NCBI GenBank assembly: GCA_003152695.1
Contig: PMAT01000093.1
Location: 1 to 64,000, forward strand
DNA from: Acidobacteriaceae bacterium
GTDB taxonomy: Bacteria; Acidobacteriota; Terriglobia; Terriglobales; Acidobacteriaceae
Length of the DNA: 64,000 nucleotides
Direction of reading: 5' to 3'
In this document: positions 13,311 through 43,269 of the stretch, one piece after another
Layout: the number at the start of each line of letters is the position of its first letter
Position numbering within the stretch: position 1 is the stretch's first letter
Program-made: the position numbers and the translations under genes
The notes under the pieces: generated by a model
What the model was told of the DNA's origin: nothing
What the model saw: only the letters and a program-made list of their open reading frames with translations
Database searches by the model: none

Positions 13311-13399
13311 CCCAAAACAGCGCAAGAATCTGCACTTTAGGTCAACTTCCTCTGCTAAGTTTATGAATCTATTATGAGAATAATGGAATTAAAATTGCC
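13311..13399 (+). promoter_or_regulatory. Sigma-54 type promoter with upstream dyad box, PEP-CTERM gene 1
   Basis: The -24/-12 element TGGAATTAAAATTGC lies at 13384-13398, with GG and GC exactly 10 bases apart. The upstream box CGCAAGAATCTGCAC is at 13321-13335, preceded by CCCA at 13311. The distance from box start to the TGG is 63 bases. The expected transcript start is near 13410, about 50 bases before the ATG, which has SD GGAGG. The same pair of elements precedes the other two PEP-CTERM genes of the window. Confidence 0.72.
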
Positions 13400-13460: not shown

Positions 13461-14054
13461 ATGCGACAAAAAGCTTTGCTGGCCGTGACCGCTCTTGTAG
13501 CAGTTCTGCTCGTAGCAGCGCCGACGGCATTTGCAGCCAATCTTGTCAACAACGGCAGCTTTGAAACCGGCGATTTCACTAGCTGGACCACAGGCGGCAA
13601 TTTCGAAGACACCGAAGTGGTGAGTGGCCCGTTCTACGTCTATACCGCCGCCCAAGACGGCACTTTTTACGCCGTTCTGGGTCCGGTAGGCAGCGATGGA
13701 ACCCTCAGCCAGTCCTTCAGCGATGTCGCTGGTCACCCCTACACCTTTAGCTTCTGGATGGCCTCCATTGGGGACAACCCCAGTGACTTCAGCGCTTCCT
13801 GGGATGGCACTCAAGTATTCGGCGAGACCAACCCTACTACAAACGGCGCTTGGACGCTGTTCTCGTTCCAAGAGACGGGAACCGGCAGCGACACCATCTC
13901 CTTTGCGTTCCGAGATGATCCGGCGTACATCGCGCTCGACAACGTTTCGGTTACGCCGAGCCAGGTAGTCCCGGAGCCGAGCAGTCTGTTGCTGCTGGGT
14001 AGCGGTTTACTGACCGTCGGTGGAGTGATTCGCCGGAAGTTGACGAATCGTTAG
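13461..14054 (+). CDS. PEP-CTERM sorted surface protein, paralogue 1
   Basis: The 197-residue protein has a Sec signal peptide (MRQKALLAVTALVAVLLVAAPTAFA). A beta-sandwich domain of about 140 residues follows, beginning NLVNNGSFETGDFTSWT (carbohydrate-binding-like fold seen in many exported proteins). It ends with a complete PEP-CTERM signal: VPEPSSLLLLGSGLL, hydrophobic stretch, then RRKL. PEP-CTERM tails are cut by an exosortase and go with exopolysaccharide or biofilm matrix; no exosortase is in the window. SD GGAGG lies six bases upstream. It is a close tandem paralogue of 14402-14989. Confidence 0.95.
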   Translation: MRQKALLAVTALVAVLLVAAPTAFAANLVNNGSFETGDFTSWTTGGNFEDTEVVSGPFYVYTAAQDGTFYAVLGPVGSDGTLSQSFSDVAGHPYTFSFWMASIGDNPSDFSASWDGTQVFGETNPTTNGAWTLFSFQETGTGSDTISFAFRDDPAYIALDNVSVTPSQVVPEPSSLLLLGSGLLTVGGVIRRKLTNR

Positions 14055-14401
14055 ACACGGAGGAACGGATCGCGCGAGACTTCGGCCCGAAGCCGTCTTG
14101 CGCTCCTTGGGCTTCTGAGTTGCCTCTGGGGATGGTGCAAGTGCTTGCCCGGTTGCGGGAAGCGCGGGTGCCATCCCACTTACCTTTGCAGAAGCCGCCG
14201 CTCAAGACCGTGAACCTAGCCCCGGTTTGAGTGGCGTTGGCCAGCCTGTTTCCCACAATAGCGCAAGAGTGTGCAACTCTGCGTTCTTTGCCCACGCCAA
14301 GTTGATGAATCTATTGTGCGGAGAATGGAAGTCAAATTGCCAATAGAAGGGTGAAGTTGGTTACGCAGTAGGGGATTCCAAGATCCCGCCCCGGAGGAAA
14401 C
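14055..14401. other. Spacer between the two PEP-CTERM paralogues
   Basis: 347 bases with no gene. Its first 35 bases resemble the sequence after the second paralogue, and its last 160 bases (from about 14245) resemble the upstream region of the first. The duplication unit therefore includes the promoter region and a little of the 3' flank. No clear terminator follows paralogue 1. Confidence 0.7.
14252..14341 (+). promoter_or_regulatory. Sigma-54 type promoter with upstream dyad box, PEP-CTERM gene 2
   Basis: The -24/-12 element TGGAAGTCAAATTGC is at 14326-14340 (GG-N10-GC). The upstream box CGCAAGAGTGTGCAA is at 14262-14276, with CCCA at 14252. Box to TGG is 64 bases. Both blocks are kept from the duplicated copy at 13.3 kb while the bases between them have diverged strongly. 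Confidence 0.72.
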
Positions 14402-14989
14402 ATGCGACAAAAAGCCTTGCTGGTCGTGATTGCTCTTGTAGCGGTTCTACTCATAGGAGCACCGACGGCCTTTGCTACCAACCTTGTCACCAACGGCAGC
14501 TTTGAAACCGGCGATTTTACTGGCTGGACTGTAAACGCCGGTCTCTTGGACGTGGAGACTGGTCCCTTTTATGTCTATTCTGGCGCGCAAGACGGCGCTT
14601 TCTACAGCATCATGGGTGACGTCGGCAGCGATGGAACCCTCAGCCAGACCTTCAGCGACACCGCTGGCCAGCACTACACGTTTAGCTTCTGGTTTGCCTC
14701 AGTTGGGGACAACCCCAGTGATTTCAGTGCTCATTGGGATGGCACCACATTGCTCAGCCTGACCGACCCCAATACCGGATCCAATTGGAGCGAGTTCTCG
14801 TTTGACGTGGTCGGCACCGGATCCGACACGATTTCGTTTGCCGAGCGAGATGACCCGGCGTACATGGCCCTCGACAACATTTCAGTTTCGCCGGGCCCGG
14901 TAGTCCCGGAGCCGAGCAGTCTGTTGCTGCTGGGCAGCGGCTTGCTGACCATCGGTGGAGTGATTCGCAGGAAGTTGACGAATCGTTAG
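14402..14989 (+). CDS. PEP-CTERM sorted surface protein, paralogue 2
   Basis: The 195-residue protein has the same layout as its neighbour: signal peptide (MRQKALLVVIALVAVLLIGAPTAFA), NLVTNGSFETGDFTGWT at the start of the mature domain, VPEPSSLLLLGSGLL and a basic end. The first 30 and last 45 residues are almost identical to paralogue 1, and the middle has diverged (for example LLDVETGPFYVYSGAQDG against FEDTEVVSGPFYVYTAAQDG). It is thus a recent tandem duplication under selection or drift for different binding surfaces. SD GGAGG. A strong terminator follows. Confidence 0.95.
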   Translation: MRQKALLVVIALVAVLLIGAPTAFATNLVTNGSFETGDFTGWTVNAGLLDVETGPFYVYSGAQDGAFYSIMGDVGSDGTLSQTFSDTAGQHYTFSFWFASVGDNPSDFSAHWDGTTLLSLTDPNTGSNWSEFSFDVVGTGSDTISFAERDDPAYMALDNISVSPGPVVPEPSSLLLLGSGLLTIGGVIRRKLTNR

Positions 14990-42358: not shown

Positions 42359-43075
42359 TTAGCGATTTAGCTTGCGACGCAATACGCCTGCGAGACCCAG
42401 AACTCCGGACCCGAAGAGCAGGATGCTGGCCGGTTCAGGAGTGGTGCTGCCTTCCGAGAACTGGTTCGTCAACAGGGAAAGGGTTGCACTTCCATTTGTG
42501 CCAGCGTTGATCAGTACGTCCTTTTGTACATCGACCTCGGATACACCCGCGAAACTGATTTCGTCATACGTCTGTATTCCGGAACTACTGTCGAAAACCT
42601 CCAGCGTCCGCGTGGTTCCTCCCGTGCAGGCGGGGAACGTGGCTCCCAGACAAACGGTCTCGTCAACGGTCACCGAGCCGGTTCCGCTAAAGCCTACACC
42701 CCCGATGGAAAGGCTGACGTCGGTGATTAGGTTGCCACCCGGGTTGACGGTGGCGGTGAACTGGAAGAGAGAATCCTCTGACAGTACGCCGCTGCTGGTT
42801 GACGCGTGCCAGCCCGTGCTCCACTGAAATCCAGGATTCAACAGCGTGGTAATGGGGGAAGTGTCTATGCTGCCCGCTGGGATGCTAAACCCCGGTGGAT
42901 TTGACGTGCTGTGATAGGCGAAATTGGAAAACGTCTTGTCTCCGATGGTGCAGTTAAATCCCGCGCCAAGATAGTTGTCGAAAGTTGTATCCTGACATGC
43001 ACTAGCGAATCCAACGCCTGACAACAAGGCGACGCACGCAATTACCAGCAACGCTGAGAACCATTTGCTTTGCAT
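42359..43075 (-). CDS. PEP-CTERM sorted surface protein 3
   Basis: The 238-residue protein has a signal peptide (MQSKWFSALLVIACVALLSGVGFASA), then a beta-rich domain starting CQDTTFDNYLGAGFNCTIGDKTFSNF, with Cys pairs and VSLSIGGVGFSGTGSVTVDETVCLG. It ends with a PEP-CTERM tail TPEPASILLFGSGVLGLAGVLRRKL. Its mature domain is unrelated to that of the two paralogues at 13-15 kb and belongs to a type common in acidobacterial exported proteins. The start at 43075 has GAAGGGAG nine bases upstream. It is regulated by the same promoter type as those paralogues. Confidence 0.94.
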   Translation of the reverse strand: MQSKWFSALLVIACVALLSGVGFASACQDTTFDNYLGAGFNCTIGDKTFSNFAYHSTSNPPGFSIPAGSIDTSPITTLLNPGFQWSTGWHASTSSGVLSEDSLFQFTATVNPGGNLITDVSLSIGGVGFSGTGSVTVDETVCLGATFPACTGGTTRTLEVFDSSSGIQTYDEISFAGVSEVDVQKDVLINAGTNGSATLSLLTNQFSEGSTTPEPASILLFGSGVLGLAGVLRRKLNR

Positions 43076-43172: not shown

Positions 43173-43269
43173 GCAATCTCCCTGCCAAAGCAGCCCGCCG
43201 TAAGTCACGCAAAGTAACCCGGTTGGTTCAGCTACTATGTTCCCAAGTGCAACTTTTTGCGGTATTGGG
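43173..43269 (-). promoter_or_regulatory. Sigma-54 type promoter with upstream dyad box, PEP-CTERM gene 3
   Basis: On the minus strand TGGCAGGGAGATTGC spans 43187-43173, an excellent -24/-12 match (TGGCA, GG-N10-GC, TTGC). The box CGCAAAAAGTTGCAC spans 43261-43247, preceded by CCCA (43269-43266). Box to TGG is 74 bases, 10-11 more than at the other two PEP-CTERM genes. The expected start of transcription is near 43161, giving a leader of about 85 bases. Confidence 0.78.

Follow-up and report, generated by a model that had tools for sequence, protein, structure and literature searches.

Enhancer-binding proteins of the NtrC/PspF type that also regulate their own genes bind dyad sites, activate sigma-54 promoters and have sites at their own promoters. 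For PEP-CTERM genes, Haft et al. (2006) described a proteobacterial cis-site consisting of motif 1 and a sigma-54 motif 2, associated with the regulators PrsK and PrsR, and reported the site in Proteobacteria only (PMC1569441). Their motif 1 is 17 nt long with a TTTACA end and a mean spacer of 62.8 nt (PMC1569441). The sigma-54 dependence of a PEP-CTERM gene has since been shown experimentally in Aquincola (PMC9850573). In E. coli, the activator AtoC has two sites upstream of atoDAEB, TGCAGAAATTTGCA and CGCAATTTTCTGCA (PMC3118216).

Here we describe a dyad box upstream of PEP-CTERM genes in Acidobacteriaceae. The arrangement is like that of the regulon of Haft et al., with an enhancer-like motif, a spacer and a -24/-12 promoter in front of single PEP-CTERM genes, and with a candidate regulator linked to an XrtA exopolysaccharide system. 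The box itself differs from motif 1: it is a 14-nt YGCAA-N4-NTGCR, with a gap of about 40, 50 or 60 nt between its end and the -24 element. Our search of the open-access literature found no description of such a site in Acidobacteria.

Boxes and promoters in the source genome

In the window, by which we mean the whole 64,000-nt stretch that was analysed (contig PMAT01000093.1), the first-pass annotation had noted three copies of a shared upstream box, CGCAAGAATCTGCAC at 13321, CGCAAGAGTGTGCAA at 14262 and CGCAAAAAGTTGCAC on the minus strand from 43261, starting 63, 64 and 74 bases before the TGG of a -24 element. Sequences, positions and distances all proved exact, with the TGG at 13384, 14326 and 43187 (minus strand), respectively. 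The first predicted enhancer, CGCAAGAATCTGCA (13321..13334, plus strand), lies 63 bp before the -24 of the sigma-54 site TGGAATTAAAATTGC (13384..13398, plus strand), a motif that is also found genus-wide. This promoter precedes a gene for a 197-aa PEP-CTERM protein (13461..14054, plus strand; PEP-CTERM domain 13968-14039). The second predicted enhancer, CGCAAGAGTGTGCA (14262..14275, plus strand), is placed 64 bp before the -24 of TGGAAGTCAAATTGC (14326..14340, plus strand), and is followed by a PEP-CTERM gene (14402..14989, plus strand; domain 14903-14974) that is a tandem paralogue of the first. The third, CGCAAAAAGTTGCA (43248..43261, minus strand), is 74 bp before the -24 of TGGCAGGGAGATTGC (43173..43187, minus strand) and belongs to a PEP-CTERM gene at 42359..43075 (minus strand; ATG at 43075, domain 42371-42442). 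The enrichment of CGCAAN5TGCA as such in the window is slight (6 observed vs 1.1 expected), and because two of the three sites lie at tandem paralogues, the window trio is weak evidence when taken alone, which is not true of the genus-wide data below.

When the whole source genome (4.5 Mb) was searched with the composite pattern CGCAAN5TGCA-N40-70-TGGN8TTGC, seven matches were obtained, compared to none for the reversed pattern, and all seven were upstream of PEP-CTERM genes: the three in the window, three in tandem on contig C128 and one on C122. A trial pattern with the wrong spacing between -24 and -12 (N9) gave no match. Relaxing the arms led to the actual site, the 14-base dyad YGCAA-N4-NTGCR, which is present upstream of 16 of the 19 PEP-CTERM genes. 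The remaining three have neither the box nor a -24/-12 site (weight matrix score ≤0.3). Applied to five PEP-CTERM genes, the weight matrix recovered two weaker boxes that scored 12.3 and 14.0 (95% level of the null, 4.1), and it cleanly separated box-bearing from box-less genes. A -24/-12 site stands in clear register at 14 of the 16 boxes; the box at C85:31527 is paired with a TGG-ATGC site at 77, and that on C16 with only a weak site, at 101. All counts given here come from pattern searches of draft genomes.

The first-pass annotation had also pointed to a CCCA 8-10 bases upstream of each box and to a central R-A-R-K-N. The CCCA is indeed present at the window sites, but was rejected as part of the site, since among the aligned sites it is not general: it is confined to the two ortholog groups represented in the window, at -10/-9, and outside these groups the position reads GAAC or CCAC. 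Conservation in the upstream flank is limited to A at -7 and C at -6, and is moderate at both positions (76%). The central R-A-R-K-N did not generalize either, the centre being variable (0.08-0.41 bit). Directly before YGCAA, a conserved GAAC-N2-TGT stretch is seen upstream of many boxes, and an RTTTAC-like element is found a few bases before -24; both occur at the 13321 promoter and its relatives and at promoters of the 54-bp class, and may represent extra contacts.

Spacing and distribution across the genus

In nine genomes from one genus of peat-soil Acidobacteriaceae, the composite pattern with a spacing of 49-79 gave 101 matches, compared to three for the reversed pattern, and eight of the nine genomes had 7 to 19 box-plus-promoter sites each. 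A PEP-CTERM domain, detected with TIGR02595, was found downstream on the same strand for 58 of the 101. Several of the other matches, at spacings of 53-55, precede PEP-CTERM genes that were missed by the listing or run off the contig, some of them encoding ice-binding-like proteins, while the rest are scattered across all spacings; the scattered matches that were inspected read as chance, one of them lying within a coding region beside a NusG-like gene. We tested for random placement of the motif without a link to PEP-CTERM genes or to -24/-12 elements, and found the sites concentrated before PEP-CTERM genes and tied to -24/-12.

The 58 PEP-CTERM-linked sites occupy only 8 of the 31 permitted spacings: 53 (4 sites), 54 (20), 55 (17), 63 (1), 64 (8), 74 (5), 75 (1) and 76 (2). 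The spacings thereby fall into the classes 53-55, 63-64 and 74-76 with none between, which bears out the annotation's guess that the box keeps helical phase with the promoter, the classes being centred on about 54, 64 and 74. Orthologous promoters are non-independent, and the set was therefore reduced by eye to 15 distinct promoters, a grouping in which many within-genome promoters are paralogous. The eight distinct promoters that are off 54/55 fit whole 10.5-bp turns from 54, with p ≈0.0003-0.003 depending on the reference, and when ten periods were compared on the full set, 10.5 fitted best. The promoter on C87 illustrates the phasing most clearly: relative to its 53/54-bp relatives it has 10-11 bases inserted between box and -24, while the flanks, the box and the -24/-12 site all match. 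Two 77-bp promoters are 1.7 bp away from the best phase.

The box has the features of a sigma-54 enhancer: it is positioned upstream of a -24(GG)/-12(GC) promoter, it keeps to a preferred helix face near that promoter (53-55, 63-64 and 74-76), and it is a dyad, as for a dimeric Fis-type HTH, with constant GCAA/TGC arms around a variable centre. (The arm letters are fixed by the search pattern, whereas the box at the kinase gene described below was seen by alignment.) The site, its spacing rule, the promoter, the gene linkage, the conservation and the co-occurrence are established by computation, and the earlier prediction that the box is an enhancer for a sigma-54 activator is supported by the PEP-CTERM linkage, the -24/-12 pairing and the phased spacing.

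Some targets stand out by their products. One target family, read by eye, looks ice-binding-like with a divergent PEP-CTERM end (loci L048, L150, L265, L277 and L302). A well-conserved secreted protein of 408 aa with 64-bp spacing (L149:1201-2424, on C87 of the source genome, and L297) has no PEP-CTERM domain and no Pfam match; its GGTSVASP stretch resembles a serine peptidase. At C97:19616 in genome G121 (L267), a box and a sigma-54 promoter at 54 bp precede a short membrane protein rather than a PEP-CTERM gene.

Family-wide use of the box was rejected: when 120 genomes from the order were searched, matches outside the genus were mostly no more frequent than expected by chance. In ≈85,000 GTDB genomes, the strict pattern matched more than once only in five Acidobacteriaceae/Terriglobales MAGs (palsa_357, bog_169, palsa_354, bog_382 and JOPF255), which are probably genomes already included in the nine-genome set.

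Candidate regulators

A PrsR-like regulator had been proposed as the binder. With the curated model for PrsR (TIGR02915, cut-off 502.6 bits), the best score in the source genome was 432 bits, and no protein exceeded the cut-off in genomes G087 or G125; for PrsK (TIGR02916, cut-off 300 bits), the best score was 102 bits, from the kinase part only. PrsR and PrsK were rejected as the regulators on these grounds, and two other enhancer-binding proteins, here called EBP1 and EBP2, are better candidates.

The source genome encodes 13 such enhancer-binding proteins. In G125, the ninth genome of the genus set (93% complete), there are 10 PEP-CTERM genes, whereas boxes are absent. In a comparison of the source genome, G087 and G125, four enhancer-binding proteins were present in the box-bearing genomes and absent from G125: EBP1 and EBP2, which are found together on contig C13, and two others, on C129 and C104. 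EBP1 (C13:41814-43205) has a receiver domain and adjoins a gene for a soluble histidine kinase. EBP2 (C13:44985-46112) has no receiver and is the first gene of an exopolysaccharide operon. The kinase and EBP1 genes are divergent from those for a PilZ protein, EBP2 and the rest of the operon, which includes genes for polysaccharide export, an XrtA-type chain-length protein, an ATPase, a tyrosine autokinase and EpsB_2; the XrtA-model matches at this locus are near, yet below, the curated cut-offs.

Seven of the eight box-bearing genomes contain EBP1; the eighth is only 74% complete. In 7/7 genomes a box is found just upstream of the start of the kinase in the kinase-EBP1 genes (TGCAATCTATTGCG, CGCAAACTCTTGCG, CGCAATGTATTGCG and TGCAATCTCTTGCG), with constant arms and a variable centre, and in 4/4 genomes another box lies 27 bp before the -24 of a sigma-54 site at EBP2. 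The regulator-gene boxes are thus much nearer to the start or promoter than those of the PEP-CTERM genes, a position that suggests autoregulation. EBP1 and EBP2 share the predicted recognition helix ISY[KR]ALLYK, which differs from that of the other eleven enhancer-binding proteins.

Of 150 family genomes, 88 contain an EBP2 orthologue; in many other genera the recognition helix is near-identical, and nearly all of the orthologues listed have a sigma-54 site at the same place. A TGCAA-type dyad at the EBP2 promoters of other genera was considered and rejected as a rule there. Across the family (L233-L258), the sigma-54 promoter of the EBP2 genes reads TTTGGYNC-N5-RTGCA and keeps its position; a TAA-N17-19-TTA dyad ≈40-65 bp upstream may accompany it and could be an older site of the same regulator. 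G087 also contains a second divergent EBP1-EBP2-like pair (C26:512-3271, L191), ≈53% and 47% identical, with no boxes between the genes.

The box would serve as the upstream activating sequence of a sigma-54 enhancer-binding protein that is dimeric and has a Fis-type HTH, the dimer reading the two GCA/TGC arms of YGCAA-N4-NTGCR. Bound on the same helical face ≈5, 6 or 7 turns upstream, it would remodel the sigma-54 polymerase at -24/-12, so that the PEP-CTERM surface-protein genes are switched on together. EBP1 and EBP2 of the XrtA-type exopolysaccharide locus are the most likely binders because box-less G125 lacks both, and because of the XrtA locus, their shared helix and the boxes at their own genes, which would be consistent with autoregulation and a cascade. 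From the sequence evidence, we give a probability of about 0.75 to the reading that the box is an enhancer site read by EBP1/EBP2 and activating the PEP-CTERM genes; binding, activation, the acting protein (EBP1 or EBP2), the kinase signal and autoregulation are what we infer in it. Counting against this reading, EBP2 orthologues with a near-identical helix in many other genera of the family lack the dyad at their own promoter. A more elaborate scheme, in which phosphorylation-controlled EBP1 and the receiver-less, sigma-54-made EBP2 read one AtoC-like box through the same helix, a cascade couples exopolysaccharide to ≈16 PEP-CTERM proteins, and the regulon grew by promoter copies whose spacers changed only by whole turns, is offered tentatively, as less likely than not.

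We considered the possibility that the enhancer is bound by another enhancer-binding protein, such as C104:2893, C129:204 or C128:126445. The C104 and C129 proteins have the same presence/absence pattern as EBP1/EBP2, both being missing from the 93% complete G125, and in the vicinity of the C104 gene (L189) are genes for an exopolysaccharide sugar transferase, an OmpA-like protein and an ice-binding protein. However, a scan of the C104 and C129 loci found no regulon-type box at their own promoters, and their recognition helices are further from that of AtoC than are those of EBP1/EBP2. C128:126445 has the top TIGR02915 score and is located ≈6 kb from three target genes, but it is retained at 89% identity in box-less G125 and adjoins respiratory HmcBC-like genes; it was rejected as the binder on account of its presence in G125 and its respiratory neighbours. 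Against the AtoC equivalog model NF008469 (cut-off 714 bits), the C128 protein scored 472.5 bits. Overall, we regard a different enhancer-binding protein as unlikely, though the most credible of the alternatives.

Since short dyads are used by many families of factors, and the regulator-gene boxes have a start-proximal position that would suit a repressor, the box might belong to an unrelated dimeric repressor or other factor that co-occurs with the promoters by chance. This is improbable, given that over 20 bp the spacing from box to -24 keeps to a single helical face, which is what contact with the sigma-54 polymerase would lead one to expect, and that the box geometry matches a known enhancer site, that of AtoC. 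It is even harder to believe that the boxes are functionless and alike merely by common descent of duplicated promoters. The two window genes at 13-14 kb form a tandem paralogous pair, the three genes on C128 are likewise tandem paralogues, and flanks such as TAGAACNATGT are common to several promoters; however, spacer and box centre have diverged while the arms are unchanged, the differing spacer lengths stay in phase, and the box recurs at the regulator locus amid unrelated flanks.

Comparison with described regulons

As far as the open-access literature searched here shows, no regulatory code had previously been predicted for PEP-CTERM genes of bacteria other than Proteobacteria; the present one comes with two named candidate regulators that are testable. 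The spacing data present a natural experiment on the helix-face dependence of a promoter-near sigma-54 enhancer, including related promoters one inserted turn apart. Via the box, unannotated secreted proteins can be added to the regulon, and one may ask which surface proteins peat Acidobacteriaceae co-produce with exopolysaccharide.

As in the regulon of Haft et al., the sites precede most PEP-CTERM genes (16/19 in the source genome). Unlike in that regulon, PrsK and PrsR are absent here by curated cut-offs, and the acidobacterial box ends in TGCA/TGCR instead of the TTTACA of motif 1. Compared to NtrC/PspF-type proteins, the target set and the sequence differ, and autoregulation would be a shared feature.

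The geometry of the box matches that of the AtoC sites. The first-pass annotation knew of no published site of this sequence, but TGCAGAAATTTGCA and CGCAATTTTCTGCA share the dyad YGCA-N6-TGCR with the acidobacterial box, and one of them is literally CGCAA-N5-TGCA. AtoC is a sigma-54 activator of the NtrC family, and its helix, ISRRALMYK, is similar to the ISY[KR]ALLYK of EBP1/EBP2. The two AtoC sites, separated by 19 bp, lie 100 and 119 bp upstream of the -24 of a fatty-acid operon, whereas the acidobacterial genes have a single box, much nearer to -24, at PEP-CTERM genes. The acidobacterial regulon thus works like one of the PrsR type; the curated models place it outside that type, and its box resembles that of AtoC.
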